Of a stretch of DNA of 64,000 bases, positions 4,355 through 41,775 are shown in pieces (position 1 is the first letter of the stretch; each line of letters opens with the position of its first letter). The DNA comes from Pirellulaceae bacterium (GTDB lineage: Bacteria > Planctomycetota > Planctomycetia > Pirellulales > Pirellulaceae). Made by a program: the position numbers and the translations under genes. The notes under the pieces were generated by a model. That model saw only the letters and a program-made list of their open reading frames with translations, had not been told where the DNA came from and made no database searches. The stretch lies in assembly GCA_026004775.1 (NCBI GenBank), contig BPJU01000024.1, positions 1 to 64,000 of the forward strand, written 5' to 3'.

Positions 4355-4488
4355 CTCGAGCCTGCCGATCCGCCGAACGTGTATTCCCCAAATGGTTGCA
4401 CGTCCGCATAGGCCGATTATAGTGCGGTTTCTGGTCGGGTCGAAATTTCGGCCCAACGTAAAGGCTACCTCCGTCGAAAGGCGTATTG

Positions 4489-7400
4489 ATGTTTTCTTTC
4501 AATGCGTCGTTCGGCGCGAGTGCCTCCGGGCGGCGCAGATACCAACGAACTGCGGGGGTAGAAGTCCTTGAGCCGCGTTGGCTGTTGGCTTCCGAGTCCG
4601 AGTCTATTCACTTCTCAGTCGACGCGCCGGATCCAGATAAAGCTGAGCAGCGTTTCGCCCCACCAGCCCCATGGCACGTCAATACTCATCCGGTAGAACG
4701 TCCGGAGATCTTGCCCTTGGAGGACGCACCACTGGCTGGGGAACACCAAACGCCTGGTGTGTGGGAGGAGCTGGATTGGCTAGAACGCTCGGAGTTGAAC
4801 GCCACAATCGCGACTCTCGCCGGAGCAGCGCTTCTGGCTGGAGAAAACTTCGTAAAGCCTTGCCCGGAAGGTAGCGACCACACGGGTCATCTGCCGGCAG
4901 CACCGAGCGAGTCGATTCGGAATGATCGATTCAAGGCAGCGCGCTTTCGCGGCGATGAGCTGCCGATGCAGGTGGAAATCCAACCGTTGTGGGCGGAGGG
5001 CCAACCCAATGCGTTTCTTGAACAGACGCAGCAGCCTTACTTGGCCCCAACCGGCCATGTAGACCCACATGACGGACTCATCCGATTCGTACGCGGCCCA
5101 CCCTCCGTCCCCGGAAACTTCGCAAACATTTCCGTTCCCGAAGGTGAGTTGACCATACCAAATAACTTCCGGACAGAAAATCGATCGCTTGGCGGTGCCG
5201 AAGGTGAAGGGGGACTAACCAGCATAAGCGGTACCCTGTCGAGCGACACAATGCTTTCCGGAACTGTCCATGTTACCGGCGATCTTCAGGTGGCCGCCGG
5301 TGTGACGCTGACGCTCTTGCCCGGAACTGTTGTCAAAGTAGCCAGTGCAGCATTCATCGATGTACGCGGCACTCTGTCGGCTCAGGGCACTGCCGACTTG
5401 CCTATTATTTTCACGTCGTTCCGTGACGACAGCGTAGGCATCGATGTTTCGGGACCCGGAACCGACTCGGGGCAGCCCGGCGACTGGGAAGCGCTTTACT
5501 TTACCACCGGCAACCCCCAGGCTCTGCTGGAACACGTCGAGATTCGCTTTGCCGGGGATACAAACGGACCGACTGTTGGGGGCGGTGCGACGCCCGCAAT
5601 CGAAATTAGCTCGACGTCCGTTGTCGCGTTCCGAGACGTTTTGGTACGCGACGTGCTTTCCACGGGCATCGACCTCCTGAGTGGTGCGCCGGTATTGGAT
5701 CGCGTCCGAGTCGAACGGGCAGGTGGCGTTGCGTTTGTCGCTTCGCTTGTCGCCGACCCGACGCTGAGCAATCTCACGGCCACAGCCACGGGGGGCGACC
5801 ATTTTCTGCTGCGTAGCGGGACGATCACGGCTGCCACCCGCCGCTGGTTCTTCGGCGGCCTACCTGTGCACCTGGCAGGGGATCTGACCGTCGCGCAAGG
5901 CTCACACTTAACGATCGATCCGGGTCTTGTCATCAAGGTTCCGAGCGCCGCCTTTATTGACATTAAGGGAAAAATTACCGCCATTGGATCGGACGACGAA
6001 CCAATTATTTTTACGTCGGTTGAAGACGATTCGGCAGGTGGCGATTCCAACAGCAACGGCGCTGCCACCACACCGCGAGCCGGAGACTGGGAGGCACTTT
6101 ATCTTACGAGTGGTGATCCGGGGGTGACGCTGGACCACGTGGAGATTCGCTTTGCGGGAGACACGAACGGGCAGGCTTTCGGTGGCGGCGAGACTCCCGC
6201 CCTCCAAATAGCCAAAGATTCGGTCACGATCAGCAACCTGCTGGTGCGGGATGTCAAGCATATTGGCGTGAGGTTGCAAGCGGGCACACCTCGATTGGAA
6301 AACGTCAGTGTCCATCGAGCGGGAAATGTAGCCTTTGACGCGACACTTGCGGTGGATCCCACGTTAATCGGCCTGTCGGCGGCGGCAACCGGCGGAGATT
6401 ATTACCAACTGGCCGGCGGCACGATTCCCTCGTCCAACCGTGTGTGGGATTTTGGCGGTCTTCCAGTCCACTTGGCCGCGGATCTGACGGTCGAGCAAGA
6501 GCGCAAACTGGTATTGGTTCCGGGTACGATCGTCAAGGTGCGTCCAGCCAATTTCATCTGGATCAAAGGAACGCTGGAAGCCCGGGGCACTGCCTCGCAA
6601 CCGATCATTTTCACTTCCGAGCTAGACGACACGGCCGGCGGTGACTCGAATCGCGACGGGACCGCCTCAGCACCTTTCCCCGGCGCCTGGGAGGCTCTGT
6701 ACATCGACGGCCCCGACACGATCCTCGAAAACGTGGACATCCGCTACGCCGGTGACACCAACGGCCCGGCTTTTGGTGGAGGAGAAACAGCGTCGCTTCA
6801 GATAAGGGCGGGCAACTCCAATGTGGTGATCCGCAACACGCGAGTGCTCTACGGCCTGTGGACCGGTATCTACATCAGCGCGGGCGATCCGCGGCTGGAG
6901 CAAGTGCATGTCGAGGGCAACGGCCGGGAAGCCGTGTTCTTGGAACTGGCCGCCAATCCGACGTTCGTCGGCCTTACGGCGTCCGCTAATCGCTTCAACA
7001 ACATCACTTTGGCCGCTGGCACGATTCCTCAAGCTACGCGAACGCTGGATTCGGGCGGCCCGCTACCTTTCCATGTGACCGGCGATCTTCGCGTGGCCCA
7101 AGGTAACACGCTCACCTTGGTACCCGGCACGGTCCTCAAATTCCCGCCGGCAGCGTTTTTCCATATTCAGGGCACGCTCATTGGTCAAGGCACGCTCACT
7201 CGTCCTATCGTGCTTACCTCGGACAGAGACGACACGGCCGGGGGCGATTCGAACGGCGACGGCGCCGCCTCAGCACCTTTCCCCGGCGCCTGGGAGGCTC
7301 TGTACATCGACGGCCCCGACACGATCCTCGAAAACGTCGACATCCGCTACGCCGGTGACACCAACGGCCCGGCTTCTGGTGGAGGAGAAACAGCGTCGCT

Positions 7401-10668: not shown

Positions 10669-10794
10669 CTAAAGCTAGCGGCCCGCGAGACCCATTCCAG
10701 AGGTCTCGCGCGGCCGCTGGAGCGCCATACCGCTTACCATCACCATACGGTATCCCCCACGTTAGCCGCCGCGCCGCGCGAATTTTTTCGCGCG

Positions 10795-11607
10795 TTACTT
10801 TCCCGTGCAGACCTCGGCTGGCGCCACCCCATACACCGCGGCCGGCGTGCAGTAGCCAAGTGCCGTATGCGGTCGCTCGTAGTTGTAGAACCGAAAGTAC
10901 GCATCCAGCCCCACATGCAACTCCGCTACGCTGCCATACTCCTTCAGGTAAATATCCTCGTACTTCACCGTCCGCCACAACCGCTCCACGAACGCATTGT
11001 CCGTCGCACGGCCTCGCCCGTCCATGCTGATCGCCACGCCCGCTTTTTCCAACCTCCCAGTATACGCGGCCGCCGTATACTGCCGACCCTGATCGCTGTT
11101 GAAAATCTCCGGCACCCCTTGCTCCAACGCCTCCTCGAGCGCCTCTAAGCAAAATAATCCGTCCAGCGTGTTCGACAGCCGCCACGAGAGCACATACCGG
11201 CTGTACCAATCGAGCACCACCGTCAAGTACATGAACCCACCGCATATCGGCACATAGGTAATGTCGCTCGACCACACCTGGTTGGGACGCTCCACCCGCA
11301 AATCCCGCAGCAAATAAGGATAAACCCGATGCTCCACACGCCGATGTGTAGTGCGCGGCTTGGGGTACACGGCCTCCAAACCCATCAGCCGCATCAGCCG
11401 CCGGATCCGCTTCCGATTCACCCCCAACACCTCCGCTAGCCGCCGGCTCCCATAAAACGGCCTGGCTGTGTACTCCTCGTCGATCTTGCGCATCAATTCC
11501 AGATTCTCCTCCGATTCGCCCGCTGGCTCGTAGTAATAGCTCGAACGAGCCAACCCCAAAAGCTCGCACTGACGCCGAACACTTAACTCCCCATGCTCCG
11601 CTTCCAC
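10795..11607 (-). CDS. IS3-family transposase OrfB (DDE integrase core)
   Basis: The 270-residue protein has a GTG start at 11607. The N-terminal part (ELSVRRQCELLGLARSSYYY, then FYGSRRLAEVLGVNRKRIRRLM) is the HTH_21-type region of IS3 OrfB. The rve integrase core follows: VWSSDITYVP contains the first catalytic Asp, FNSDQGRQY the second, and FVERLWRTVKYEDIYL the Glu region. The end, YNYERPHTALGYCTPAAVY, is typical of the family. The frame also reads openly upstream as LPSSIRELRGC into the orfA end, so the protein is probably made mainly as an OrfAB fusion. The length is normal and no inactivating change was seen, so the element may still be active. Confidence 0.93.
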   Translation of the reverse strand: MEAEHGELSVRRQCELLGLARSSYYYEPAGESEENLELMRKIDEEYTARPFYGSRRLAEVLGVNRKRIRRLMRLMGLEAVYPKPRTTHRRVEHRVYPYLLRDLRVERPNQVWSSDITYVPICGGFMYLTVVLDWYSRYVLSWRLSNTLDGLFCLEALEEALEQGVPEIFNSDQGRQYTAAAYTGRLEKAGVAISMDGRGRATDNAFVERLWRTVKYEDIYLKEYGSVAELHVGLDAYFRFYNYERPHTALGYCTPAAVYGVAPAEVCTGK

Positions 11608-11623
11608 ACATCCGCGAAGCTCC

Positions 11624-11929
11624 CTAATCGAACTGGGCAGCTTTTTTTTTCAACCACTCCAACTCCATCCGCAGACGACCAATCTCCTGGTATAACTCCG
11701 CCACCAGCCGCTCCTGTTCACCACGGTCACCCTGACGGCCACCCCCAAACACCTCCGCCGCTTGCGTCAACAACTGCCGTTTCCACTTCGCTACCTGTAC
11801 CGGATGTACCTGGAACCGCGACGCCAGCTCGCTCAACGTCCCCTCGCCCCGTACCGCTGCCAACGCTACCCTCGCTTTCTCCGCCGCCGTATAAACTCTT
11901 CGCTTCCGACCCATGCTCCTCTCCTCCAA
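11624..11929 (-). CDS. IS3-family transposase OrfA (helix-turn-helix)
   Basis: The 101-residue protein starts MEERSMGRKRRVYTAAEKAR; the second Met (MGRKRR) is an alternative start. The HTH_Tnp_1 region is visible in KARVALAAVRGEGTLSELA and FQVHPVQVAKWKRQLL, which would recognise the element's terminal repeats. The C-terminal part (AELYQEIGRLRMELEWLKKK) is a leucine-zipper-like coiled coil used for oligomerisation in this family. Translation ends AAQFD shortly after a run of nine A residues. It lies immediately upstream of orfB in another frame, as expected of IS3 elements. Confidence 0.92.
   Translation of the reverse strand: MEERSMGRKRRVYTAAEKARVALAAVRGEGTLSELASRFQVHPVQVAKWKRQLLTQAAEVFGGGRQGDRGEQERLVAELYQEIGRLRMELEWLKKKAAQFD
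11642..11650 (-). promoter_or_regulatory. A9 slippage site joining orfA to orfB
   Basis: On the minus strand a run of nine A encodes KKK at the end of OrfA. orfB lies in the +1 (equivalently -2) frame relative to orfA. Loss of one A in the transcript would give WLKKKLPSSIRELRG and then OrfB, a join typical of related elements. A simple -1 ribosomal slip would instead meet a stop after about 18 codons, so transcript slippage is the more likely route here. Confidence 0.55.
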
Positions 11930-11966
11930 ATCCCCCTACTAACCTCGGCCACTTTAACTTACCAAC

Positions 11967-11987
11967 TGGTCCAGTTTTTGGGGGCCA
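11967..11987. repeat. IS right terminal inverted repeat
   Basis: The complement reads TGGCCCCCAAAAACTGGACCA and matches 15 of 21 positions of the left repeat. Confidence 0.65.
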
Positions 11988-11988
11988 T

Positions 11989-11991
11989 TAC
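11989..11991. repeat. right copy of 3-bp IS target-site duplication (TAC)
   Basis: This TAC duplicates 10618-10620. It is the Tyr codon at which the giant reading frame resumes as YRVTIGPEVTDLVGNAL. Confidence 0.65.
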
Positions 11992-32900: not shown

Positions 32901-35900
32901 CACCTATGAATATGACGCGGTGGGGAACCTGGTGGTGCAGGTGGATGAAATCGGCCGGCGTCTTGAATCGACATTTGATGCCGTCAACCGCGTCACCCGT
33001 GTCACGCTCAAGGATGCCGCGGGGAACACGCTGGCCACGGATACCATCGACGCCTATGATGCCGCAGGCCGCGTCCAGATCAAAACCGATCGCGAGGGCC
33101 GGCGTACCGTGCTGGGATACGACGATGTGGGCCGCCTCGTCACCGAAACCGTCGAAGCGGACCGTACTATCGTTTCACGTACCGACTACGATCTGGCAGG
33201 AAATATCCGCGCGATTACCAATGCGCTGGGCCACGTCACCACTTTCGACTACGACCCGCTCAATCGGGTCACCCGGACCGTCATTGGCAGCAATACGCCG
33301 GATCCGGTGACGAAGGAATTCGCCTATGACAAGAACGGCAACATCGTTCGCGAATCGCTGAAACTGGATGGCGGCGACCGCGTTATCCAATACACATACG
33401 ATGCGCTCGACCGGGTGACCGAAATCACTCACGGTTTCGGAACACCTACGCCGGCTTCGCAGCAGTTCAAGTACGACCGTGCAGGGAATCGGATCGAAGA
33501 AATCGATCGGAATGGCCGCCGCACCGTCTACGAATTCGATATTCTCGGGCGCATCGTCAAGGTCACCCAGGCGGCCGGTACGCCGGATGCAGCCGTAACA
33601 CGGTTCGAATACAACAGGAACTCCGAAGTCACCGCCAGAGTCTTCGAGAACCGTGCGGGCGGAAGCCTACAAGTACAGCGTACTGAATTCGAATATGACG
33701 GCCGTGGCCATCTCATCAGGCGCACGGCGGGGGCTGGAACCAGCGACGCCGTCGTCACGACGTTCAAATACGATGCGGCGGGACGGCTGATCGAGGAAAC
33801 TCTGGAAAACCAAACACCCCAAGGCGTGATCCTGCAGACAACGGTTACGGAATACGACGCACTGGACCGCGTTGTGCGGGTGCGCCATGCGGCCGGTACC
33901 GCCGATGAAGTCGTGCGGCGCTTTGTTTACGACGAACACCAGCACCTGGTGCAGGAGATCCTCGAGAACGACGACGGCGATCAAGTGACAGAACACCTGT
34001 ACGACGGCCTTGGACGGCGCATCCAGACGACGATAGCCAAAGGATCGACCGCCGAACGCATCATCCGGTTCGAGTACAACAACGCCAACTTGTTGACCGC
34101 CCAAGTCGTCGTGAACGCCACCAGCAGCGGGTCGCGCGAAATCCGCACGGAATTCGGTTACGACGGCCAGTTGCGTCAAAACTTGATCCGATACGCGGCA
34201 GGAACCGCCGAGGAGTCGGTTGAGGAATTCCACTACAACGCTGCCGGGGAACTGGTGCGGAAAACTGAACCGGGCGGGCGCACTACCCAATACCAGTACA
34301 ACTCACTCGGACAGCGTGTCCGTATCACGATCGCCGCAGGTTCGCCCGACGAAGTGGTTCACACGCTGGTATGGGATAAAATGGGGAACCTGCTTTCCGA
34401 AACCACTCCTTCGCAGACGATCCGCCATACCTACGACGCACTGAACCGGCGTATCTCGACCACACGTGCCGCCGGCACGTTTGCGGAAGCCACCGAACGA
34501 TGGCAGTACGACTCGTTCGGCAACGTCATTGCCTATGTCGATCCGAACGGCAATACCGAGCAATACACGTATGATGTGCACAACCGTCCGGTGCAGATCC
34601 AAAAGACGGTCGCGGGCCGGACGATTATCGACCTGGCGCGGTACGACAGCGCTGGCAATGTCGTAGAAACCATCGAAGATGCCGGTGGAAAGGCGCGCAG
34701 AACGCGCATGGTATACGATGCGATGAACCGTCAGGTCGAACGCATCGACATGGCCGGCGGAACACCGCGGCTTGTCCGGTGGACCTATAACCGAGCAGGT
34801 ACCGTCCGATCGGTCACAAACTCGGACGGCAATGCAACGTCGTTCCGATATGATGCCCAGAATCGCCAGATTGAAGCGGTCGATGCTGCGGGGTTTTCGG
34901 TGAAGACCAGCTATGACAGTGTTGGGAATATCATAGCGCAAACCGAGCCGCATCGGGGCCCCACAGCTCCGACCACCTTCTACGAATACGACGCGCTCAA
35001 CCGCCGCGTCAAAGTAACCGACAGTGCCGGTAACTCCCGCACAATTCGGTACTATCCGTTCGGAGCCGTGCAAGAGACGAGCGGCCCTGAAGGCACGACG
35101 CTCTACACATATGATGCCCTCTATCGTATTACCGAAGTGCAGTCGCCGCAGGGTACCATCAAGTATACGTACAACCGTGCGGGGCACTTGACGAGTGTCG
35201 AAGATCCGTCGGGCAATGTGACCCGCTTCACGCCGGATCCGCTCGGACGGCCGGTAACGATCACCGACGCCCTGGGAAATGCCCAGACGTTCCAGCGAGA
35301 CCCGGCGGGCAATCTCATCCGGCAGGTCGATCGCTCGGGGCGCATCATCGAACGTGACTTTGACAGCCTCAATCGCACCGTGCAGGAGCGGTGGTTCGAT
35401 GCCAGCGGGGCACTGGAAAACGTCGTCCATTACACCTATGACGGACTGAATCAGTTGGAGTCGATGATCGACAACTTCTCGTCTTTGCTGTACACATACG
35501 ATGAAGCCGGCCGGATCGCGAGTATCACCACATCGGGTTCCGGCGCGCCGACCACTCATCTGACTTACACCTACACCAGCATAGACAAGGTGGACCTCGC
35601 ACAGCGCAGCGTCGACGGACAGCCGATGGGATCGGTCGACTATGATTATGACCTTTCCGGGCGCGTGGTAGCGATTACCGAGCAGGGCCCTGGCGTGGCG
35701 CCCAAGCGAGTCACGATCGAATATGACGATCTTGGCCGCATCGCCACCATCGCGCGCTTTCGCGATTCGGCGGGAAGTGTCGAGGTTGTGCGCACGGATT
35801 ACCAATATGACGCATTGGGAAACATCCTACGTATCACACACCAGACGGCCACCGGTACGCCGGCATTCTACGATTTCCAGAGATATGCCGATGGCCGCGT

Positions 35901-38900
35901 CCAGTCGCTCACCAGCGCTGACGGAACGAGCAATTACACATATGACAGCGCCGGCCAATTGGTCGCCGCGACCTACACTGATGCGGATCTGCCCGACGAG
36001 CACTACACCTATGATGCCAATGGTAACCGGATCCAGTCGCAACTGCATGGAACGAGCTACCAGGTGACGGCCGACAACCGTCTGGCGAGTGATGGAGACT
36101 TCGCCTACGAATATGACGCGGAAGGAAATCTGATTCAGAAGCGGAACCTGGCAACAGGCCAGACGCGACTCTTTACGTGGGATGCCCGCCAGCGTCTTAC
36201 ATCCGTCACCGATCAGAATAGCTCCGGGGTGCCGATCCGCCGAACGACGTATCAATACGATGCGTTGAATCGCCGTATTGCGAAGGCCGTTGACGAGGAT
36301 CCCAATGATGGGATCGATCCGCCGGTGCAGTATTTCTTGTATGACGGCGGTGACAATGTAGTGTTCGAGTTTACGGATGCGGACGGAGGAGCGAGCGGAT
36401 TCGTGCCGCAGTTGGCTGCCCGTTACTTCCAAGGGCCAGGAATCGACGAAGTTTTTGCTCGGGAGGATCCCACAGGCAACGTCTTCTGGAACTTGACCGA
36501 CGCCCTCAACTCCGTGCGGGACATCGTCGACCAGCAGGGACGAGTCGTGAATCACGTCAAGTACGACGCATTCGGGAATCTGATCTCGCAGAGTAACGAA
36601 CAATTCGCCACGCGATATGCGTTTACCGGACGGGAGCTCGATTCGGAAACAGGACTCTACTACTATCGCAACCGCTATTACGATGCAAACATAGGCCGGT
36701 TCATCAGTCAGGATCCGCTGGGATTCGGTGGCCGGGATACGAATCTGTACCGCTACGTCGGGAATGATCCGGTCAACACGATCGACCCCACCGGTCTGAT
36801 CGGCGAACAACCGAAGGGCAGTGACGACAGCCGCCAGACGTATCTATCGTTCCTGTCGCTGTACAACCTCAAGCCGTCCTCCTTCGACCTGATGAATAAG
36901 AAACTGGCGGAGTTCCAATACGAATACGAAAATGCCGGCGGATGGACGCGCTATCTGCGCCAGTCTTCCGGATGGGGCGTGTTTGCACCGATTGTCGCCG
37001 GCGGCAGGTTCGCCTTTGATACAGCCAGTCAGGTGATGGGCCTCGGTATCACGACGATCTACGAGATCAGCCTGTTGGCTGTCGATATCGTAGGCGGCGT
37101 GGTGAATTCGGGCACCTTCACCTGGAATCTCCTTACGGGGCAGAACGTGCAGGTCGAACTGTTTCGGCAGCCTGCCAGTGGCATCGTGAAGGGTGTTGTA
37201 CAACTGCACAGCCAAATCGAAGAAATCTTTACGATCGGCGGCAAGGTCGGAAATCTCGAAAAATATTTCCTCGCGCCCACCGCGACGTTAGGCCTGGTCG
37301 CAGCCGGCCTGATCGGCGGAGTTGTGAGTATTCCGGTCAATCTGGTCGGGGGTGTAATCAAGGGCGATCCGCAGCAGACAGGGCAGGGCCTGTTCGACCT
37401 GGCGACACTGCTTCCGCCGGCCAAGTTAGCAGGATTGGGCAAGGCCGCCGAACTGAGCAGTCTCACCACACCCTTGCGGGCCTTGAAAAACCCATCCACG
37501 TGGAAACGGCTCGGTGAACAGGCGGCGCTGGTGGTACGGGAACCGGGTGAATTCGTGATGACCGTCGGACGCGCTGCGTCCGATGCGATCAATTTGAAGC
37601 TGATGCGGGCGGCGACCGCGCATCCGACACTCTTCCGCATGCTGTATTATCCCGAATTCAATTCGCAGATGCTCACACAACTACTCAAGAAGGAGAGCAT
37701 TGAACTGACCAATGCGCAGTTGCGGCAATTACAGGACATTACCGACCACATGCTGGCAGCCACACAGCGTCCCCAGCCCGGCTCCGGCTTTCTCTTGTTG
37801 GGCAAGACGGCCGAGGAGGTGAAATCGCAGATTACGGACGTCGCCAAACGGCTCCGCAATTTCCAGTCGGCCAACGGGGGTAAAGTGTCTCGCGTGGCGG
37901 AGCTGCTTGTCGAGAAAATCAATAGCTTTGCACACCATCCGGGTATGACGCTTGAGTTAACGGAGCAGGCGGCTGCTTTGCGCGAGATTATCCAGCTCCA
38001 CAAGTTCAGCATGCCCGGCCCGTGGGAATTTGTCGTCGAGCGGTTGCTGCGCGTGCGAACCTTCGACGATTTTAAGTCGGTGTTGACATCCGGCTTTAAC
38101 GATCCGGAGGTGGTGCAAACGTTCTCGCAGTTCGTCCGCGATGTAAGCGCGCCTGGTTCGGCAATCGCCTCCAGGTTGGGAATCGATCCGAGTGAACTCC
38201 TGGGGCTTAACCTGCGGGGCACGGGCGGAGCCTCGTTTGCTCAGATCGCGCGTCGCGGGCGCGAAATCGCAAAAATTTTCGGCGGCGACCTGACTCCTTT
38301 GCGTCAAGCCATGGCCGGAGGCAGTGCGGCGTTTCGGTTGATGGCCGATGTCTTCAAGTCGCCCCTGCAAGCTCTATCCGATATTGACCTCAACATTTTT
38401 GCCGCCAACGCCCGTGCATTTGAGGTACTTCATCAGAAGGCTGTGGTGAAGTTCCCCAACGGCTCCAGCAAGGAGCTCGTCGGCGGCAAACTCATCAACG
38501 AGTTTATCACATGGCTGGAAGCCAATCCGAACACCCCTGGTCGAGCAAAGATCTGGGAGATTCTTACCAAAAAGGGGCTCGATAAACCCATCGAAATCTA
38601 TTACCAGGACCTCGAGGAATTTCGAAGCTTGACCAGCTTTGCCATCATCAGCCGCAGTCCCGTGCTGAAAGGGGGTCTGTCGATCGTCGTAGATGGAGAT
38701 GATATCGTCACCATCCTGAATCGGTCCCCGCTGTTCGACGTCACGATACGCGGCGCCTCGATTCTGGATCGGGTTCCCCTCGCGGCCTTGCTGCTTGGTG
38801 GCGGAGAATGGGTGTTTATTGTGGACGAGGAACTGATGTCGCACCAGCAGCAAGCCGGGCCGGACGTCGTGGTAGTGGTACCCGAGCAGGTGCGGTCGCT

Positions 38901-41775
38901 GGACGAGCAACTGATGCGGCTCACCGCTGCAGCCTTGCGAATGTGGGAAGAAGCCACCGGACGCAAGCTTCCTGTCATCGTGCACGCAGCGGTCAAGAAT
39001 CTCGAAGCAGGCCAACTCGGACAAGCCTACATCACCCGGTTCCAGGACGACGGAAGTCCCGCCGAGGGTGTGCTGATCCTGGACGACGACGGCGCCGGGT
39101 ATGGCTGGTTTATCGATGAGACGCCGCGGGAGGCAACGGAATTCGACACGCGTTTGTCCGAAACGGCTTTTGCAGCCAGACAAGGTCCGGCCGTGAACCG
39201 CTACGACCTATTCAGTGTGGTTCTCCATGAAGTCGGCCATTTGCTGGGATTCACAGGAGACTTTTCCGGATTCGCCGCACTGCGTACACCGCTTACACCC
39301 CAGTTAATGCTCGTACAGACTGACTCGGGCCAATACTTCCTGGGACCGTCGGGCAACGAGTTGGATTCGCGCCTGCACGCGCTGGATACGATGAGCGAAG
39401 CGCTGAAGCGCTCCATGCGCCGTCTACCCTCACCGATCGATGCGGACATTTTGCGAAGCGCCTGGCAGCGAGCCGGGGCCACAACGGCCGATCAACCAGG
39501 CCGCGTGCTGAGGCTGCACGAAGCGGGTCACTTGCAGAAGCATACGGGGTTTATCTTGCTGGCTCACGAGATCGAACAAGATCTCCAGCACGGGCCACCC
39601 ACCGGACTGCAAAACGGCGGCTTCGAAATATTCGATCCAAATGATCCCGGATTTCTGTGGAATCGTTTAGGGGATGTTCGAGTAGAAAACGGCGCGGCAG
39701 TGCTGCGGCCTGCGCCGAACAGGCTGTTTACCAGTTTATTGCAGACATTCGTGATGCCGGCCGGCGCGTCTCGGCTTCAGTTCTCGCTTGCCAGCTTGTC
39801 CTTGTCAGCCCCCACTTCCGAAATACCGCCGGCGTTCGAAGTGGCCCTGTTCGACTCGATTACCGGCCAATCGCTCTTGCCGCCGATTACTGGACTAACC
39901 GGCAGTGACGCACTGCTCAATGTTCAAGCCGATGGCCGAGTTTACTTCGCGCCCGGTGTAACGGTTGCCGGAGCAGTGCAATCGGGCGGCGTGTTGTCGC
40001 TGAGTCTGCCGCAGCAAGTATCGATCGATGTCAGTGGCGTGCCGGCAGGTACTGCTGTGACCGTGTCGTTCGACCTGGTAGGCAGTTCCGAGCCGGGCAA
40101 CAGCGCGGCGGTGGACGATGTTCGGATTCAATCGCCGCCGGCACTTGAGCTTCGCCTGGAAAAAGATAGCGATTCCGGCCTGAAGGGCGACCTGATAACC
40201 AATCGGCAATTCGTAGTACTGGAGGGCACGACGGATGCGGGCCAACTGGTGGAATTGGATATAGACGGCGATGGCACAACGGACCGCACGGCGACGGCCG
40301 CCGCCGACGGGCGATTCCGCTTCGACAATATTGCGCTGGTGGAAGGGATCAACACCTTCCAGGCTCGCGCGACCAACGCCACGGGCACAACGGCGGCTGT
40401 GCTGAGCGTGCGCCGTGACACCGTGGGACCTCTCTTTACGGATCTGCCTCAGGATATTCTGGTTGAAGCTGCCAGTTCCGGCGGGGTTGCGGTGAGCTTT
40501 GTCACGCCGACGGCCACAGATGATACCGACCCGAGTCCGCACGTGGTATGCAACCCGGTAAGCGGATCCGTGTTCCCCGTAGGTACGACGCCGGTAGCGT
40601 GCGTGGCTACCGACGCGGCAGGCAACACCACCACCGCCACATTCCGGGTCATTGTGCGCTTTACGGGCGGCGTGTTGGACGTGACGCCTCCGGTCATACG
40701 TGACGTTCCGGAGGACTTGGTGGTAGAAGCGCAAACGGCCGACGGGACAATAGTCGAATTCCCGTTGCCTTCCGTGTCCGATGATCTGGATCCACAACCG
40801 GTTTTGGTCGCCAGCCATTCCAGTGGCAGCCTGTTCCCGATCGGGGTTACGGAAGTCACCTTCACCGCAACCGACTCGGCCGGCAACAGCAGCCAAAGCT
40901 CGTTCCGCATCAGCGTCCAGGCCACCAACATGATTTCCGGTTATGTGTACGCCGATGTCAACAACAACGGTGTACGCGATCCAACGGAACGGGGGTTGCC
41001 GAACGTACCGGTGCATCTGTCTGGAGCCATGACGCGCACCGTACTGACCGATGCTACAGGCAAATACGTCTTCAGCAATCTTATTCCGGGCACGTACACA
41101 GTGCAGCAAACGCACCCGTCAGCATTCAACGACGGCAAAGACACTCCCGGCGCACCGCTTCTGGGTGAAGCCCAGAATGATCGTATTGTCGACATATCGT
41201 TAACCGGCGGCTTGCGGGCGGTTGAGTATAATTTTGGCGAGCGGGGATTGCGGGCAGATCTGGTGACCAAACAACTGTTCCTCGCATCCACGCCTCCCAT
41301 GGAACAAATGATTATGCAGCTCAGCGTCAACGGGGATGAGTGGCTGAGCTTCCGCTCGGACCGCACGTCGACGGTGACAGTGCGCGGTTCAGGCGAAGGT
41401 GCGTCGCTGGAGCTTTACACGGACCGGTTCGAGCCGGTGGCGCTGGCGGGCCGGTCTGGGCAGCTTATGGGGCAAGTGTTGGAAGGACGTAACTACGTCT
41501 TGTACATCGGTGCGGCGAAGCCCGAAGATGTAGAATTGACGTTCGCGGCGATCGAGCCGGTCAAGCCGGCAACGAACCCGGTGCTGGCGGCCGACGTCAA
41601 CGGTGACGGACGAGTCAATGTGTTGGACCTGGCGGCCCTGATTAAATTCCTCCGGCGCCCCTACGCTCCGCCGGCCGACGGCACACCTATCTATCTGGAT
41701 CCAAATCGAGACGGCAGGATCACGACGTTGGATGTCTTCTACGTGATCTTCCACCTCCAGGGCCGGCGCATTTGA
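11989..41775 (+). CDS. 3' part of the IS-interrupted giant protein (CARDB / He_PIG / RHS / dockerin)
   Basis: These 9,928 native codons continue the gene that starts at 4489, in the same frame. The open frame extends back to 11593 inside the IS, but those 132 codons are antisense to the transposase and are not native. There is no obvious start near 11989, so expression after insertion is uncertain. Order: end of the fifth Ig-like repeat; 14 CARDB-like repeats; PPC/TIG-like and propeller-like parts; nine He_PIG/cadherin-like repeats; a short RHS-like segment; a dockerin; Big_2-, ZU5- and propeller-like parts; a long RHS/YD array with RHS core; a helical and hydrophobic extension with HEVGH; two HYR modules; an SdrD_B-like module; a terminal dockerin. 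With the 5' part the restored protein would be about 11,971 residues. Secretion and calcium binding are likely; the biological role is unknown. Confidence 0.85.
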   Translation, partial: YRVTIGPEVTDLVGNALNHDGDGIFGEVEDAFVFQIRLGLPDLTIENPVVPAIIANGQTLAVQWTIRNAGTATARAPWTDRATLSADEFFGNQDDIEIARIISSADLEAGATRVLQGSVAVPFGSFGQFRVFFRTDSANQVAEGVTGGETNNLISVPIQVEFRPPPADLVVDAIQVEPLVHTGQAIDVTWRVLNAGTAATGTSRWFDELVLSANTTLGDTDDIILRQFERNGTLASGATYTRSERVTIPEALAAGGYRLFITTDRFNHVVESGAEGNNTASADITIELSPTPDLVVRSVTSPATAVAGQTLAVTWTIENAGAASASPLWVDRIYLSGDGQLQGATLIGEFNRPRELAAGGDSYSRSESVTVPALSGNFVLLVQTDAANSVFERDAEGNNILARSGSVIVVHPDLIVEEVTLPQGLSPESGSEVRVQWRVRNTGQASAAAPWVDRIYLSPDDQFSIDDVLLGEQARASSLDAGASYDASIQLRLPEAAIGHFRILVVSDAANSVQEVAGEGNNAGASPLMDIQAAPFADLTVTSITVPSQVIGDPVDLSVSWTVANQGTGSGRVDTWVDRVVLSRDTVLGNTDDLVIGTFVHTGLVPAGLSYSRTEIIALPPATEGRFQLFVVTDADDAVFEHTDQAPNSRQADHVVDVLRQPYADLVVTSVVADAFGTNGLPLRISWTVQNLGIAATQSTSWRDRISIAPNEEGTGRRTLAEVTRIGGLAVNGAYTQTTQVVLPVDVSGTQYLFVETDVSGQVFEFLFRSNNLGRSNAVQVNFVPAPRGDLEVLAVAGPTQAADSSSVDVTWLVRNNGPDTLQQSWVDRVFLAPGGVFDSNAVPLGTFPRSIGLEAGKTYQRTESIVLPKTAGVFRFFVVTDADNRVAEDVESNNRRGSDLVTVLLRPRPDLQVTSAQAPSRVTAGTALDVEFVVTNLGTAATPTGGSRWKDAVYLSVDNQLGNDILLGQLDNLSALEPTQSYSSRGNFRLPQGLSGNFFLLVVADDGNRVDEFPQEGNNLLALAIAIDAVPVPPPDLMVTSVGVPRQVFDGQSITVRYRVENRGAGITVPGSWADSVWLTRGKDRPNALRGDILLATFSHSGALDINQFVEKAADVTIPKFITGQFFLTVWTDVYDRVFENQFATNIDPDAPNDLDGNNFLAVPLDVLLTPAADLVVTHVTAPANALGGQQVTVRWTVANQGAASTDRERWADAVYIADSADPRDPSRRLVFAVPHAGVLHRGESYEETATFTLPPSASGKFFVVETNVDPHLALTDEELFLKEIREILIRAEQKLGKPLAEVSLADIRQLSRNDLITILTGPSRSFEPVFEGPFTANNAASVPSDIRNIFPDLEVADIHVPAAAFSGDSIQIQWTVRNNGQGAVWSGTRYWTDYVFLSPDPVYRAERAQLVAARTHQQTGIFGAGDSYTSAATIQLPPGTSGNRYVHVFTDIAIDRNGRAVLSGLAPGKYPTWPRAFADRVWEGPGDKSNNGRSSSAIAVTYREPNLRVVSFQADPSAFSGGLVSLRFQVRNEGTFRTRVARWSDRVYLSTDPTLDNFDLLLATIPRSGALEVGESYVVQQQVQLPENIDGPFFLLVYTDSPFDSTTPMGPLLPYPSTAGGPRLSTGGNGTGAVLEFQDEVDNLASVPITVLFRPNPDLQVTSVTTDARVLVGQQFTVSYQVTNSGAGDIPARQANWRDFIYLSRDGILDPASDHFLGEVRRTDVLLSGQSYQVTRSFPVPRGLRGTYFVIVLADAPAGNAVLGSVVESNERNNAAPSSQPVLIDLPPPSDLQVDAIDIPLTALAGDSVTIRWRVTNRGTQPAVGLWADAAFLSLDGVWDLGDRLIGSVEGDFRRLEPGQSYEASLTASLPMALPDAYRVIIRADVFDDIFESDNRNNTQPSSETLLVTVRTLDLDTPLDDTLSTGQSRLYRVAVPSGATLEVTLRGADEEAARELFVRHEALPDSIRFDAAYSGRLRGNQTALVPRTNSGFYYILVRSQAEPAPDTPIRLLARTLPFAIHDITPDTGGDNRYVTLDVRGAQFADQAVVKLIRPAFAEFLPVSQRVVDATRILATFDLLNAPHGLYDVQVTNPDGRTARVPYRFQVESALPLDVTVGMGGPAQIEITRSGVLPGIYGVSLKSLTNVDVPYVHWQFGVPRIANTAAGIIPGERLAFSPAVASAPNVAGVDWSSLPLVVNRSGLLQAEVFVADLHNRGFTASSFVVQVYPELKSLLQENPKFLLELSELELQSLEFDFFVEASATPMTTGEYMAFQRDLAARLRSAILADPSAPQALVAAAVDASAWTELWLAGLAAAGLLRSEDVPPQVRERPEIHSILAAISAALLAGEQGSSFVDGGDFSRFFELLRKWYGHQPDAFGSSGLPPADDFDLKLAHPTHFEVFRIRVTAGDLLERFAVVQQVPEVDFSQFFSPLGDSSPFIRIRGPDTAASGGFVPLGEVLPYTISFDVPVERATVVRELRIVQQLDSDLDVRSFVLGDVQLGELLLDLPDDRAAFAGEFDFTETLGFVIQVTAGVDVNARVATWLIRAIDPETGLTVASTQRGLLLPGGSGQVGYQIRPLATAPDSAAIEAVVRAFYDNGTPLESNRIRNTLDAIAPTTVLEVRQALGGVYDLSWTATDNAGGSGILKYRIYASLNGGPFTLLSTTENTQLQVVLGQDAAAEFFVQAIDRAGNPEVPPESVLLPPVGSAVNLGGAPVDPDLQPALLPRPPPPLPQPSTNPLFTRAKLRIPAQLGSSRRTAFARIFEPFTASAFVRNIAQSGAGIGPLGIAFHPAGGSVYISGGPGRNQLWRFTGAVGNAGAPLAVLDVPLYDMLFDREGRLWATTGGGPLVLLDPSTGNVLERFGDGINLGMALGPNGTDLYVSTARGIEIFDTNTLRFRSFSSTRVDGLAFDPNGILWGTLWPRGGQVVRFDAKGRAETMLELAHEAEALAFGLPGTELANLMFVSHADGGALTLVDLVSLETLEIGIGGSRGDFLHIDPQGRLFLTQSSQVDILEAIVPPRVVAVSPPPAAGVTPIVNRARVTFSTDMKHLASDGAASVTHTANYQLTNMVTGQAIPIGTAVYDPTGRTVELVFESLAPDTYELRIAPSIQSQTGVALEGEVRSEFRVVEDLSFAVAPVFSGTRLDRALGALVFDASITNTLPVDLANVQVILEGLGAPALSLLGADGLTQEGHPYLNFASEQGGPIRPGQTITRTVRVINPEELPVDLAPRTVGQLPANLRPVITSVPGTSATLGQAYRYNVSANDPDGTSVRFLLIRGPAGATLDAESGQLEWIPSPTDGKTVHFEVRTYDERSGFASQSWDVVVNAGNSPPVLLPIADQIVSEGQLLELPVAAFDPDGDPIVFGTAHLPPGAVFDAEDNTIRWVPDGFSAGRYSGIEVFATDGQSLVRTTFEILVQNTNQPPILEPIGNITIREGDALLLALVATDPDGDPIRFSAPGMPIGAQLDAARGIFRWTPRFDQNGTYTFDFIAGDGQFRARQPVTIEVLNVNGPVKVRPLGKFVIQEGQTLNIRIGVEDPDHPYRILPDAVGPDVDVAFFGRAPPVTITHTALPDGAAFNDENDLFSWTPRFDQAGFYTVTFTAEDDGDGTGTATRDSKTLEIEVVNANGPPQIQEIPNRTVAVQSVLALDISATDPDGDPITLAARLDSGDVFTPLPSFITFTDHGDGTARLDARPQPGDRGTYLVTIEARDNGNGDPFQIALAERTFVLTVQSDNEPPIIERLFNRVAVVNEPVVFDVRVRDLDEDPLQFTADGLPGSATFSATTVYGVARFQWTPTASDLGPHTITLRVTDSGNGDDSRKLSSEQTFTITVRQTNQAPLLLPVGARSVAELSELLIVPTAIDPDGDELAFGAVDLPSGAEFDPATGTIRWIPDAFQAGDYRVRLTVTDGHRSSSEDIPITVTNTNLAPRFLPVGRIFGQEGSSIAFQVHAFDVDEDPLTFVVEGSLPLNATFDSKTRTFLWTPGFDQAGDYQITFQVRDQGGLSDTLNVPVRIAGVNLPPVLQPVRNRVAVVGQPLELDITANDPDGDTVTFSATGLPAGAAIDPQTGRLTWTPTGIQAGKHPVRIRASDGDLSATLDMTLVAAFEPSPPSVVVDLAPSFPVVVGQRVVVQVAATAVADIVSLSLTIDGRPVELNASHQSVYVTDRVGRIPVVATAVDASGVAGTATAFIRVRNPADVEPPTIAVDVPPAGFVLTAPLDLIGSVIDAGLDEYRLELIPLGGGVPVLIGQGTSPVQSASLGRIDPESLLNGAYHLVVTATDLGGRTSSLSRLIEINTPVKTGAFERAVTDLVAVLDGVPVPFTRRYSSLRAGQTGELGFGWSLLGFDPRITTNVAPQQTGLPSGFRLETRVYVTLPDGARASYRFTPEEIEFAGRTFYVPSWTAEGSTSYTLRSALAVLELAGGQFFEVGSGLPYDPALGEFRGFAYSLIAPDGTRYDYGTVPGTTNQAGQPPIRLQRIVGPLGQQLVVTGDQVVAISSGERVSMRRDAQGRIDALIASDGRRVLYTYDAAGNLVQANNLAVATRTFYGYDTSHRLTAWIDNSDAVTYDAEGRLVAIEPIRAFLGGLNDVLGATTTTDSLPAGQRHLYAFLVGDSEIKTAFQDRVAVGIEVRANGTFQPGQIVLRGVPASFAAVEVNRSLAIFELRQGGPLVFEVTGANGTTAGPYELEIFLAGDINGDRRIDGVDEALFESAFGSRAGQGGYLPAADADRDGDVDSQDGAYLTAGFGFSANQRPVVQDANATTLAGVGIAVDLANLASDPEGAPLSFALFGAVNGTVTLSHDGHTAVFRPAPGFAGTASFDFRADDGQLASASARVTITVTDFSVRSLFLTERDFVLAPGASAQLSLQAELADGTLVRVPAELVTFATSDPEIIAVLADGRLLARQNGTAIIRASLDGRVAATPVTVGSFVPKKIDLFPQSYTLEVGQTRKFTLRDSPTPPTVRDISRASDGTTYLVNDPAVAQIDNDGSLTALRAGRTFVTVIHGGQSFVVPILVTDPATTGGSAVIGRQGGIVANSDGFAIGVPPGALPDGTTLTVATKRQTDLPIALPEGWQFVNAFAFGTGGQAANFPLAVQVPNSANVPAGTDLYLFEYVELVDGPNQRSPGWFLVDHMVAGDDGFIRTASAGFSGLGVNIPNGILVRPQVTGLMVAAMPNVLTLSFAAGMMASSLRHSTEVIDQSGNRYRHVPGFFGDFFIPVVPNIDYRIRFLTHSDDGFVTSSQDTRVRLVPGAIEDFGLQVVPRPPVIGGIPRPRIDRVVVTFDTQGGSQPQLVITGGDFLFENPDDEVPRVDGHKLGSHVEDLIVLFQVGGPDGFDQQGNQIPAGGRDVRLTGLEASGQLRFQLSQDGTELRVPIPQDALIETSTIRVIRAMHRRSGSEFTVVEFPSPEISLIGKELANRPDRYAFTALPSPGIISVIDMKSTALVKVGEQLAEDGSGDKIPVFQELASPREVARIQLASHDDFPAPRMVALSPLQGRAYVTLPNVGGVAVLDAIALQEIDTVPDLENQPQTHGINFIRLPKGARPFWAVTDNRGRRLFVSDELSGNVYVVDIDPSSETFHQYVRTIPVAPAPLGLRQLAVNSIDTRLYVAAPGQSLLANFSSAKGHLLVVDISDPEEETLIQAVPVGPEPWAVETASDDPNLIFVSDRKDDAQGITILRRRNVQVFDLDAGAVVDVYDRQVLDVRSFGLGFNVDRSNQAFGVSNVTGIAYLPANTYAQPLVDTQGRPVVDVQGNRVLTNTHPAYLFVSAFNRFIQDDPKHDPNQPITLVTHPSVRVRLLVRANGPGDPVLPGESFDPQQVIPVFRPRPFPTTAGSNIGIIRLENGSGGQLLPRLVAATRTTPNAFADNVAFSTANAGVIVSPYQAQRGVWLFSAAQIVDFIEKGTQGQPAESLQNFFNQAVQIDVPRGAPPDSALSVIPIDDLFPAVNIPGSDFRFFGPDSALDDGRQQLTVDTKTQRLVPVTGLTFGVPNRDIFGNDTAQGTANPFAPVPLGSLGRGLAAQNALRNFIPPQDNAFNQRVNLCETGAVDCSRQEPVTASAKAELHSGAVHETHPIAFYTSLGVQRGLTLHYDSLRADPRPIIHFSFKDVPPGPGQVILARLKAELGGVVFRASGVEDSEQIRQLGLTGGENFFLVPPGGGDFGAALQIDMRAAESGVYQYTLEAGIFQHAGVFIGEFGNFQGLLPVVNLSRGPFGAGWSLEGYMRLYGAGAGAMLLVDGNGNESIRRLPLSLGEPLGNEQGDLSTLRQDPDGGFTMGSPDGTLYKFNGDGLLTKVIDIHGNATTYEHAGDKLVRIVDPLGRFFRFEYSGEVVTAIVDYAGRRTELVIDGNGDLRQIKDPDGSVRSFEYEEHRLTREVHKRGNPFPVTETEASDFAETIRYTFAGRYQSSTRIDGAAIEMDAAQMIGLYPADQTIDPFHITATAVDLGEPRARYKDAGGTEWFSKVDVFGLYQESSNSADAATATVRQPKLERDPATNRVVKEIIFDKDGTEAKTVYEYDRSGNVTKVIEENGDYVELQYETLANPNDSRFVWHRKKLSRNVFADGTVARVTRFELDSRGRSEGQVIRETATHGEVIWKYEYDEFGRMVRQTDPEGRVTVFVYYQGNDNNGNLKEIVYPTDGNTPAASRTFAYDQYGNQQQTTDENGNTTITEFDAMNRPLRVIDATPQRNTTENTYDAAGNLREIKDARGNKTLFTYTILNQLKTQTNAVGDTMLFTYDRNGNLFETFDGRGRLVSRNTYDERDQLRRIERADGGILLYDYDKRGNLIRIVDQRGNATVSQFNDFDLELFNRDALGGETRYTYDKLRRVKTVADPNGNVTEYDYDDLDNRIRIVKGANDPSVAVVQEFTYDKAGNLLEERLKTPAGDRIIRRQYDARNRLIKLTVGAGTSIEAVSRYTYDGVGNLIEEIDPEGRVTRWEFDERNNLKKMIVGAHLDPSQQAVRTYEYDAVGNLVVQVDEIGRRLESTFDAVNRVTRVTLKDAAGNTLATDTIDAYDAAGRVQIKTDREGRRTVLGYDDVGRLVTETVEADRTIVSRTDYDLAGNIRAITNALGHVTTFDYDPLNRVTRTVIGSNTPDPVTKEFAYDKNGNIVRESLKLDGGDRVIQYTYDALDRVTEITHGFGTPTPASQQFKYDRAGNRIEEIDRNGRRTVYEFDILGRIVKVTQAAGTPDAAVTRFEYNRNSEVTARVFENRAGGSLQVQRTEFEYDGRGHLIRRTAGAGTSDAVVTTFKYDAAGRLIEETLENQTPQGVILQTTVTEYDALDRVVRVRHAAGTADEVVRRFVYDEHQHLVQEILENDDGDQVTEHLYDGLGRRIQTTIAKGSTAERIIRFEYNNANLLTAQVVVNATSSGSREIRTEFGYDGQLRQNLIRYAAGTAEESVEEFHYNAAGELVRKTEPGGRTTQYQYNSLGQRVRITIAAGSPDEVVHTLVWDKMGNLLSETTPSQTIRHTYDALNRRISTTRAAGTFAEATERWQYDSFGNVIAYVDPNGNTEQYTYDVHNRPVQIQKTVAGRTIIDLARYDSAGNVVETIEDAGGKARRTRMVYDAMNRQVERIDMAGGTPRLVRWTYNRAGTVRSVTNSDGNATSFRYDAQNRQIEAVDAAGFSVKTSYDSVGNIIAQTEPHRGPTAPTTFYEYDALNRRVKVTDSAGNSRTIRYYPFGAVQETSGPEGTTLYTYDALYRITEVQSPQGTIKYTYNRAGHLTSVEDPSGNVTRFTPDPLGRPVTITDALGNAQTFQRDPAGNLIRQVDRSGRIIERDFDSLNRTVQERWFDASGALENVVHYTYDGLNQLESMIDNFSSLLYTYDEAGRIASITTSGSGAPTTHLTYTYTSIDKVDLAQRSVDGQPMGSVDYDYDLSGRVVAITEQGPGVAPKRVTIEYDDLGRIATIARFRDSAGSVEVVRTDYQYDALGNILRITHQTATGTPAFYDFQRYADGRVQSLTSADGTSNYTYDSAGQLVAATYTDADLPDEHYTYDANGNRIQSQLHGTSYQVTADNRLASDGDFAYEYDAEGNLIQKRNLATGQTRLFTWDARQRLTSVTDQNSSGVPIRRTTYQYDALNRRIAKAVDEDPNDGIDPPVQYFLYDGGDNVVFEFTDADGGASGFVPQLAARYFQGPGIDEVFAREDPTGNVFWNLTDALNSVRDIVDQQGRVVNHVKYDAFGNLISQSNEQFATRYAFTGRELDSETGLYYYRNRYYDANIGRFISQDPLGFGGRDTNLYRYVGNDPVNTIDPTGLIGEQPKGSDDSRQTYLSFLSLYNLKPSSFDLMNKKLAEFQYEYENAGGWTRYLRQSSGWGVFAPIVAGGRFAFDTASQVMGLGITTIYEISLLAVDIVGGVVNSGTFTWNLLTGQNVQVELFRQPASGIVKGVVQLHSQIEEIFTIGGKVGNLEKYFLAPTATLGLVAAGLIGGVVSIPVNLVGGVIKGDPQQTGQGLFDLATLLPPAKLAGLGKAAELSSLTTPLRALKNPSTWKRLGEQAALVVREPGEFVMTVGRAASDAINLKLMRAATAHPTLFRMLYYPEFNSQMLTQLLKKESIELTNAQLRQLQDITDHMLAATQRPQPGSGFLLLGKTAEEVKSQITDVAKRLRNFQSANGGKVSRVAELLVEKINSFAHHPGMTLELTEQAAALREIIQLHKFSMPGPWEFVVERLLRVRTFDDFKSVLTSGFNDPEVVQTFSQFVRDVSAPGSAIASRLGIDPSELLGLNLRGTGGASFAQIARRGREIAKIFGGDLTPLRQAMAGGSAAFRLMADVFKSPLQALSDIDLNIFAANARAFEVLHQKAVVKFPNGSSKELVGGKLINEFITWLEANPNTPGRAKIWEILTKKGLDKPIEIYYQDLEEFRSLTSFAIISRSPVLKGGLSIVVDGDDIVTILNRSPLFDVTIRGASILDRVPLAALLLGGGEWVFIVDEELMSHQQQAGPDVVVVVPEQVRSLDEQLMRLTAAALRMWEEATGRKLPVIVHAAVKNLEAGQLGQAYITRFQDDGSPAEGVLILDDDGAGYGWFIDETPREATEFDTRLSETAFAARQGPAVNRYDLFSVVLHEVGHLLGFTGDFSGFAALRTPLTPQLMLVQTDSGQYFLGPSGNELDSRLHALDTMSEALKRSMRRLPSPIDADILRSAWQRAGATTADQPGRVLRLHEAGHLQKHTGFILLAHEIEQDLQHGPPTGLQNGGFEIFDPNDPGFLWNRLGDVRVENGAAVLRPAPNRLFTSLLQTFVMPAGASRLQFSLASLSLSAPTSEIPPAFEVALFDSITGQSLLPPITGLTGSDALLNVQADGRVYFAPGVTVAGAVQSGGVLSLSLPQQVSIDVSGVPAGTAVTVSFDLVGSSEPGNSAAVDDVRIQSPPALELRLEKDSDSGLKGDLITNRQFVVLEGTTDAGQLVELDIDGDGTTDRTATAAADGRFRFDNIALVEGINTFQARATNATGTTAAVLSVRRDTVGPLFTDLPQDILVEAASSGGVAVSFVTPTATDDTDPSPHVVCNPVSGSVFPVGTTPVACVATDAAGNTTTATFRVIVRFTGGVLDVTPPVIRDVPEDLVVEAQTADGTIVEFPLPSVSDDLDPQPVLVASHSSGSLFPIGVTEVTFTATDSAGNSSQSSFRISVQATNMISGYVYADVNNNGVRDPTERGLPNVPVHLSGAMTRTVLTDATGKYVFSNLIPGTYTVQQTHPSAFNDGKDTPGAPLLGEAQNDRIVDISLTGGLRAVEYNFGERGLRADLVTKQLFLASTPPMEQMIMQLSVNGDEWLSFRSDRTSTVTVRGSGEGASLELYTDRFEPVALAGRSGQLMGQVLEGRNYVLYIGAAKPEDVELTFAAIEPVKPATNPVLAADVNGDGRVNVLDLAALIKFLRRPYAPPADGTPIYLDPNRDGRITTLDVFYVIFHLQGRRI
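12106..17730 (+). repeat. fourteen tandem CARDB-like repeats
   Basis: Repeat heads follow the pattern PDLxVxxVxxP (for example LPDLTIENPVVP, TPDLVVRSVTSP, HPDLIVEEVTLP, RPDLQVTSAQAP, PSDLQVDAIDIP); fourteen were counted. Each module is about 130 residues with V.W.V.N.G....W.D.VYLS, then a G..Y.....(V/L)PP segment and F.L.V.TD..N.V.E..E.NN. This is the CARDB family, an Ig-like fold found in bacterial surface proteins. The eleventh repeat is preceded by a helical insert (about 15,800-15,960). Confidence 0.85.
17731..21720 (+). other. mixed domain region: PPC-like, IPT/TIG-like, propeller-like, Big_5-like
   Basis: A PPC-like segment opens the region (DDTLSTGQSRLYRVAVPSG, about 17,745-18,030). 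An IPT/TIG-like module follows (HDITPDTGGDNRYVTLDV to VTNPDGR, about 18,055-18,320). A long stretch with no clear family includes helices (about 18,670-19,130) and an FN3-like piece (LSWTATDNAGGSGILKYRIY, about 19,890). A propeller-like part starts at about 20,340 (LGIAFHPAGGSVYISGG) and runs to about 21,050. A Big_5-like module (RVVAVSPPPAAG) then precedes an N-rich transition. Assignments are by eye and moderately secure. Confidence 0.5.
21721..24315 (+). repeat. nine He_PIG / cadherin-like repeats
   Basis: Repeat heads are N.PPVL.PI-like (NSPPVLLPI, NQPPILEPI, NGPPQIQEI, NEPPIIERL, NQAPLLLPV, NLAPRFLPV, NLPPVLQPV, with two more diverged). Each carries A.DPDGDP(I/V).F......LP.GA.F....G...W.P....G.Y.....A.D, the cadherin-like putative Ig pattern. 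Conserved DPDGDP loops suggest calcium binding. Confidence 0.85.
24895..25770 (+). other. short RHS-like segment before the internal dockerin
   Basis: The segment resembles the entry of an RHS shell: FTRRYSSLRAGQTGELGFGW, then RYDYGTVPG and two or three YD-type repeats (YTYDAAGNLVQAN, YGYDTSHRLTAWID, VTYDAEGRLVAIE). It ends after only a few repeats and has no RHS core. It looks like a truncated duplicate of the large RHS module further downstream. Confidence 0.6.
26083..26256 (+). other. internal type I dockerin-like domain
   Basis: Two EF-hand-like calcium loops occur about 33 residues apart: GDINGDRRIDGVDEALF and DADRDGDVDSQDGAYL. This is the type I dockerin pattern. Dockerins are usually C-terminal; here the domain is in the middle of the protein. 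Confidence 0.8.
26257..30100 (+). other. cadherin-like, Big_2-like, ZU5-like and propeller-like region
   Basis: A tandem-cadherin-like module (NQRPVVQDANATTLAG, FRPAPGFAGTASFDF) is followed by two Big_2-like modules (FVLAPGASAQLSLQAELADG and YTLEVGQTRKFTL). A ZU5-like stretch follows (GGIVANSDGFAIGVPPGALP, about 27,100), then a part with lower similarity to anything recognised. YVTN/propeller-like repeats (RLFVSDELSGNVYVVDID, RLYVAAPGQSLLANF, NLIFVSDRKD) occupy about 28,290-29,300. The final 800 bases lead into the RHS shell and have no clear family. Confidence 0.5.
30110..36800 (+). repeat. large RHS/YD-repeat shell with RHS core
   Basis: The entry (RGLTLHYDSLRADPRP, FGAGWSLEGYMRLYG) is followed by more than 50 YD-type repeats counted by eye, such as YDAAGNLREI, YDALNRRVKV and YDSVGNIIAQ. 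The RHS-associated core lies at about 36,601-36,800: YAFTGRELDSETGLYYYRNR, YYDANIGRFISQDPLGFGG, NLYRYVGNDPVNTIDPTGL. In polymorphic toxins this shell encloses a C-terminal toxin released by cleavage at the DPxGL site. All the usual landmarks are present. Confidence 0.95.
36801..39600 (+). other. post-RHS-core extension with hydrophobic segments and HExxH motif
   Basis: After DPTGL comes a helical region with hydrophobic stretches (VFAPIVAGGRFAFDTASQVM, ITTIYEISLLAVDIVGGVVN, LGLVAAGLIGGVVSIPVNLV) like those that follow RHS cores. A charged helical part with no recognised family runs to about 38,650. Near its end LFSVVLHEVGHLLGF has the zinc-protease motif HEVGH (39,226-39,240) in a matrixin-like setting, preceded by DRLP-type beta residues (LPVIVHAAVKNLEAGQLGQA). 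The third His of the long metzincin motif is not where expected, so activity is uncertain. Confidence 0.6.
40420..41250 (+). other. two HYR modules and an SdrD_B-like module
   Basis: Two HYR (hyalin) modules start PLFTDLPQDILVEAAS (about 40,432) and PPVIRDVPEDLVVEAQ (about 40,687). Each ends with FPVG.T.V..(V/F)(V/T)ATD.AGN. An SdrD_B-like module follows, ISGYVYADVNNNGVRDPTER to GTYTVQQTHP, with its usual DxNxNGxxD calcium loop. Confidence 0.85.
41575..41775 (+). other. C-terminal type I dockerin-like domain
   Basis: Two calcium-loop repeats close the protein: ADVNGDGRVNVLDLAALIKF and DPNRDGRITTLDVFYVIFHL, followed by QGRRI and the stop. This is the usual C-terminal dockerin seen in many planctomycete LEPR-xLL proteins. 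Confidence 0.88.

Follow-up and report, generated by a model that had tools for sequence, protein, structure and literature searches.

Genes longer than 5 kb have been classed as giant in the Planctomycetes, and the largest quoted, from Fuerstia marisgermanica and Gimesia maris, reach approximately 36 kb (Kohn et al. 2016 and another source, both as cited in PMC5352709). In the Planctomycetota huge proteins are described as frequent, with dockerins proportionally commoner among them (PMC11573180; also PMC5352709), and a protein of approximately 8,000 residues with a LEPR-XLL domain is mentioned in PMC10868602. A 39,678-residue protein is described from Omnitrophota (PMC10066038). For mobile elements of the IS3 family, the -1 arrangement of orfA and orfB is given as general in the well-characterised subgroups, and IS1447 is described with orfB in the +1 frame of orfA over a run of nine A (A9), where +1 transcriptional slippage has been demonstrated (PMC6211511).

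The window, that is, the whole stretch of 64,000 nucleotides that was analysed (G000:C24:1-64000), comes from a 6.14-Mb genome of the Pirellulaceae assembled in 30 contigs. It holds a gene of 35,916 nt, by arithmetic after subtracting the 1,371 bp that an insertion sequence (IS) has added, and so exceeds the 5-kb limit. Compared by their described features only, this gene and the giant genes of planctomycetes are alike in their surface-protein repeats and in a size of approximately 36 kb, equal to the largest quoted (PMC5352709); it differs from them in being interrupted by an IS and in joining an Rhs core and a zincin motif in one protein. We consider it very probable that the gene encoded an 11,971-residue surface or secreted protein and was disrupted by the recent insertion of a 1,368-bp IS3-family element, with duplication of GAG. 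As a recent IS insertion in a giant gene of known kind, the locus is well explained.

The interrupted frame and its counterparts in relatives

Two open reading frames (ORFs) in the same frame are found at 4486 (TTG) or 4489 (ATG) to 10668 and at 11593-41775, as an earlier note on this DNA had stated; the gene start was taken as ATG 4489, which TTG 4486 directly precedes (Table 1). Five Ig repeats can be counted by eye in the 5' part, and the fifth, interrupted by the IS, stops after GTY and picks up again as (R)VTIGPEV, which bears out the earlier reading of a repeat completed across the element with no residue lost. The 3' ORF has 10,060 codons and its start codon at 11593 lies inside the IS, so that the ORF opens with 134 codons of IS sequence, the last of which overlaps the duplication. 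Without the IS, the native protein comprises 2,044 residues, one Arg and a further 9,926, and the total of 11,971 first proposed is therefore correct. The 9,926 native codons contain no stop in the gene frame, against 322 and 265 in the other two frames of the + strand.

Table 1. Positions of the giant gene, the IS and associated features in the window
Feature	Position	Strand	Details
BBP7 porin-like gene, upstream neighbour	2984..4354	+	Same strand as giant gene
5' part of giant gene	4489..10623	+	2,045 native codons; ATG, LEPRWLLA, beta-helix repeats, Big_5-type Ig repeats
Target duplication GAG, left copy	10622..10624		From flank comparison
5' ORF tail	10624..10668	+	14 codons (duplication/IS border, then IS) and TAG stop; 5' product 2,059 aa
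IS3-family insertion sequence	10625..11992	-	1,368 bp; ends fixed by same-genome copies
Transposase orfB	10795..11649	-	rve/DDE integrase core; 284-codon open frame, +1 frame of orfA
IS-derived lead of 3' ORF	11593..11994	+	134 codons, nearly all IS
Transposase orfA	11624..11929	-	HTH_Tnp_1
A9 run (T on + strand)	11642..11650	-	Putative site of transcriptional slippage between orfA and orfB
Target duplication GAG, right copy	11993..11995		From flank comparison
3' part of giant gene	11995..41775	+	9,926 native codons and stop; CARDB to dockerin
Rhs repeat-associated core	36562..36798	+	TIGR03696, 92.2 bits (cut-off 32.5)
Segment without G011 match at E<=1e-3	36799..38757	+	Between Rhs core and zincin region, both common to G011
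Zincin motif HEVGHLLGF	39226..39252	+	15.6 bits against Matrixin PF00413, under its cut-off of 24
Dockerin type I domain near C-terminus	41590..41751	+	46.4 bits (cut-off 22.9)

Besides the genome itself, 39 relatives were searched, none of the same genus. The 5' part was matched by 13 of the 39, many over one or two domains only. Two relatives from this set (G003 and G011) were traced as far as the junction, together with Roseiconus nitratireducens (L038), which came from a separate search that returned 51 pattern stretches with one confirmed; in their best segments the relatives are approximately 35-49% identical to the window protein. When these genomes were checked for the two halves as separate genes, the insertion point was uninterrupted in all three, each having a single frame at the junction, which indicates one gene there and not two. 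The comparison supports the proposal, made in the earlier note, of one giant ancestral gene split by an IS3-family element.

G011 belongs to the same family but another genus and is represented by one 7.18-Mb contig, on which a single frame of 12,272 codons (C1:723932-760747) corresponds to the window gene. Residue 2,044, the last of the 5' part, aligns with residue 2052 of this protein, and residue 2 of the 3' part aligns with 2055, which leaves the expected gap of one residue; the weaker of the two aligned segments gives this junction, and the strongest begins only at residue 158 of the 3' part (on 2088), in another CARDB register. The corresponding junction residues in G003, whose frame of 5,753 codons is cut by the contig end, are 4124 and 4127, and here the strongest segments supply both. 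The last residue of the 5' part corresponds to 2468 in Roseiconus, where the frame can be followed by eye through the remainder of the Ig repeat into CARDB; the aligner begins the 3' part one Ig repeat too early (2359), and this junction therefore rests on the 5' alignment and on inspection by eye. Repeats blur the alignment register at the junction in both G011 and Roseiconus. By coordinate arithmetic, the 7,595 codons counted for Roseiconus inside the locus and the 10,498 counted genome-wide belong to one frame, and since RHS matches are listed for this relative in other frames, gene content varies. A conserved partnership with the BBP7 porin upstream was also considered and is unsupported, none of the six BBP7 matches in G011 lying beside its giant gene.

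The IS3-family element and its copies

Target duplications in the IS3 family range from 3 to 5 bp. Seven matches to the IS occur in its own genome, of which three are near-identical full copies, on C24 (the window), C25 and C23; the copies on C12, C13, C19 and C21 are diverged or partial and were left out when the ends were fixed. In window orientation all three near-identical copies have GGAG at the left end and TACA at the right, and each is flanked by a matched 3-bp duplication of its own: GAG on C24, ACC on C25 and GGT on C23. The earlier note had taken TAC as the target duplication. This is excluded by the flanks of the three copies, TAC lying four bases off, and the IS is instead the 1,368 bp from 10625 to 11992 with GAG duplicated, although the sum of 1,371 bases for IS plus duplication stands as the net addition. 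The ends are imperfectly inverted, 15 of 25 terminal positions being alike, and with 3 bp duplicated in 3/3 near-identical copies the element has both the duplication and the inverted repeats of the family. The C25 copy is identical to that in the window (0/1,368 differences), and the C23 copy has 30 differences from it and carries stops in orfB. Five stops within the IS are in frame with the giant gene, the first at 10668 and four more after it.

Both transposase frames are open in the window copy and overlap, the orfA frame occupying nt 58-366 and the orfB frame nt 344-1195 of the IS. The orfB product scores 277.1 bits against NCBIfam transpos_IS3 (cut-off 160), which confirms the family, and 80.2 bits against Pfam rve (cut-off 32.6); orfA alone scores 38.2 bits, under the cut-off. 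The IS is matched in 28 of 40 genomes (own included), and the orfA and orfB frames were compared in six of them: own, G015, G017, G019, G023 and G037. All six have orfB in the +1 frame, with none having the programmed -1 frameshift layout usual for IS3, and five carry a run of 9 or 10 A at the overlap, G037 being without it. In the more distant loci L050 and L051 no match to orfA was found. An IS3-family group with +1 orfB, mostly over A9 or A10, takes in the window, C25 and C23 copies and loci L044, L045, L046, L047 and L049. By described features it resembles the IS1447 subgroup, the window IS having orfB in the +1 frame over nine A; a difference is that the subgroup is described as enriched in Firmicutes (PMC6211511).

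The surroundings of the other copies vary. At locus L039 (C25:12424-17644) the C25 copy lies between a 296-codon LEPR-like 5' fragment and a YD-repeat 3' frame; these fragments match a single 2,137-codon frame at C23:2780-9190 at 97% and 92%, with approximately 1,140 codons missing between them, so that this IS sits beside a deletion and its outcome differs from that of the window insertion. The C23 copy is 1.3 kb upstream of the 2,137-codon LEPR/RHS frame, the partial C13 copy lies between two YD-repeat frames, and the C12 copy, which is not at a LEPR/RHS gene, adjoins what by eye is a methyltransferase-like frame.

Domain architecture of the restored protein

The N-terminus reads LEPRWLLA, with LE(D/P)R-xLL in G011, G003 and Roseiconus, and we take it to resemble the LEPR-XLL motif of giant proteins. 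An NCBIfam scan of the first 120 aa, in which a LEPR domain was sought, returned no family. Four own-genome hits of a LEPR-like DNA pattern were discarded, because the pattern, being too strict, missed the window motif and its control gave an equal number of hits on one strand.

Over curated cut-offs, the 5' part contains Beta_helix and Big_5, the middle of the protein CARDB, He_PIG, Big_9 and RHS repeats, and the region near its end HYR, SdrD_B and dockerin type I. This set (beta-helix, Big_5, CARDB, RHS, zincin motif, dockerin) marks a giant planctomycete-type surface protein, and the intact product was most likely a giant extracellular protein, adhesin-like or of RHS type. The motif HEVGHLLGF, taken with the sub-threshold matrixin match, suggests a zincin.

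In an ordinary RHS protein the chain ends after the variable tip. The likeness of the window gene to RHS/YD-repeat proteins lies in its RHS repeats and Rhs-associated core, both over cut-off, and in the segment after the core, which is not the same in this gene and in G011. Lying between flanks that G011 shares, the segment resembles a variable tip; no Pfam toxin family was found in 36799-38757. The difference is that the variable segment is not C-terminal, the chain running approximately 1,000 residues further through the zincin region to the dockerin end. At the same threshold (E<=1e-3) the intact G011 protein gives no match to the final stretch (40132-41772) either.

At 11,971 residues the protein is below the 12,272 codons of G011 and far below the 39,678 residues described in Omnitrophota (PMC10066038), so that its earlier billing as among the largest predicted bacterial proteins holds within Planctomycetes, where the largest quoted genes are approximately 36 kb (PMC5352709), but not overall. 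Elsewhere in the genome the Rhs core has at least 23 further match rows, often several per contig (for example on C1 and C13), some of which may be pieces of one copy, and the zincin region has a weak match (C3:243927-244118, 31.3 bits) in another giant frame, 8,071 codons long.

Consequences of the insertion and alternative readings

The identical sister IS, the exact duplication and the 9,926 stop-free codons point to a young insertion, in keeping with the fresh loss that the earlier note had offered as one of two possibilities. The 5' part would give a truncated protein of 2,059 residues that keeps the N-terminal motif, the beta-helix and the Ig repeats. The 3' part, with RHS, zincin motif and dockerin, has neither a native start nor an N-terminal sorting motif, and the full protein would for this reason be lost in the strain. 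No promoter-like site was found on the + strand in 10200-12400, where only the sigma-70 consensus was sought, and no Shine-Dalgarno-like sequence precedes ATG 11593 by eye; together with the stop at 10668 these results make loss of the full protein the likely outcome. The insertion would then be ordinary IS mutagenesis, with reversion rare or nil. A literature search on IS-disrupted giant adhesin genes found no match.

The two halves might alternatively work as two functional genes, the 3' part being started within or just after the IS. The 3' frame is indeed open from ATG 11593 for 10,060 codons, with no stop before 41773, but an open frame is to be expected where the insertion is recent, and the missing promoter-like, Shine-Dalgarno and sorting signals, with the single frame across the insertion point in 3/3 relatives, weigh against this reading, which we judge very unlikely.

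The reversible switch that the earlier note had also suggested, with the giant protein made only in those cells of a population from which the IS has been precisely excised, is very unlikely. The open transposase frames and exact duplication of the window IS would suit it. One AEP-TOTE primase-like ORF occurs in the genome (C11:194895-195536, L073), within a 777-codon frame in which, by eye, a TPR-like stretch precedes the AEP-TOTE part; the AEP-TOTE domain is presumably part of the IS-excision enhancer (IEE). In the search that found this one ORF the control was positive in one of 14 genomes, and among the literature matches listed nothing relevant linked AEP-TOTE to IEE. Exact excision of IS3-family elements is known with IEE and an active transposase, for IS600 in lacZ (PMC9397093) and likewise with IEE for IS629 (PMC9330008), and like those systems the locus has an IS whose exact removal would repair the gene around it; it differs in that the window gene is known here from one IS-carrying allele alone. 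No excised allele was seen in the single assembly, and precise excision is described as rare in bacterial cells (PMC9397093). Nor does the shared frame across the IS add anything to the case: it would arise by chance one time in three, exact removal of an element restores the gene whatever the frame, and the IS brings five in-frame stops. Frame preservation as a sign of function was therefore dismissed, and nothing found shows a switch.

More doubtful still is a compound version, in which enhancer-assisted precise excision switches a giant RHS/adhesin-like protein and the element favours LEPR/RHS targets. Among the five of seven matches whose surroundings were examined, the IS lies in or near LEPR/RHS or YD-repeat genes on C24, C25, C23 and C13 but not on C12. 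That the assembly joined the left flank of one IS copy to the right flank of another is hardly credible, for although the 30 contigs include two identical copies and the C23 copy is near a contig start, the three copies are flanked by matched 3-bp duplications that differ from copy to copy, and in three relatives protein homology carries on across the two halves.

Were the IS excised at a useful rate, or the 3' half still used, the locus would be a rare natural switch of a giant protein. Disruption by a recent insertion remains the preferred reading; the comparisons directly establish the one ancestral gene, the IS ends, the target duplication, the sister copies and the stops within the IS. 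Automatic annotation of this genome would list two giant proteins where the relatives have one. As an example the locus is a clean one: a 36-kb bacterial gene shortly after its disruption, with intact relatives for comparison.
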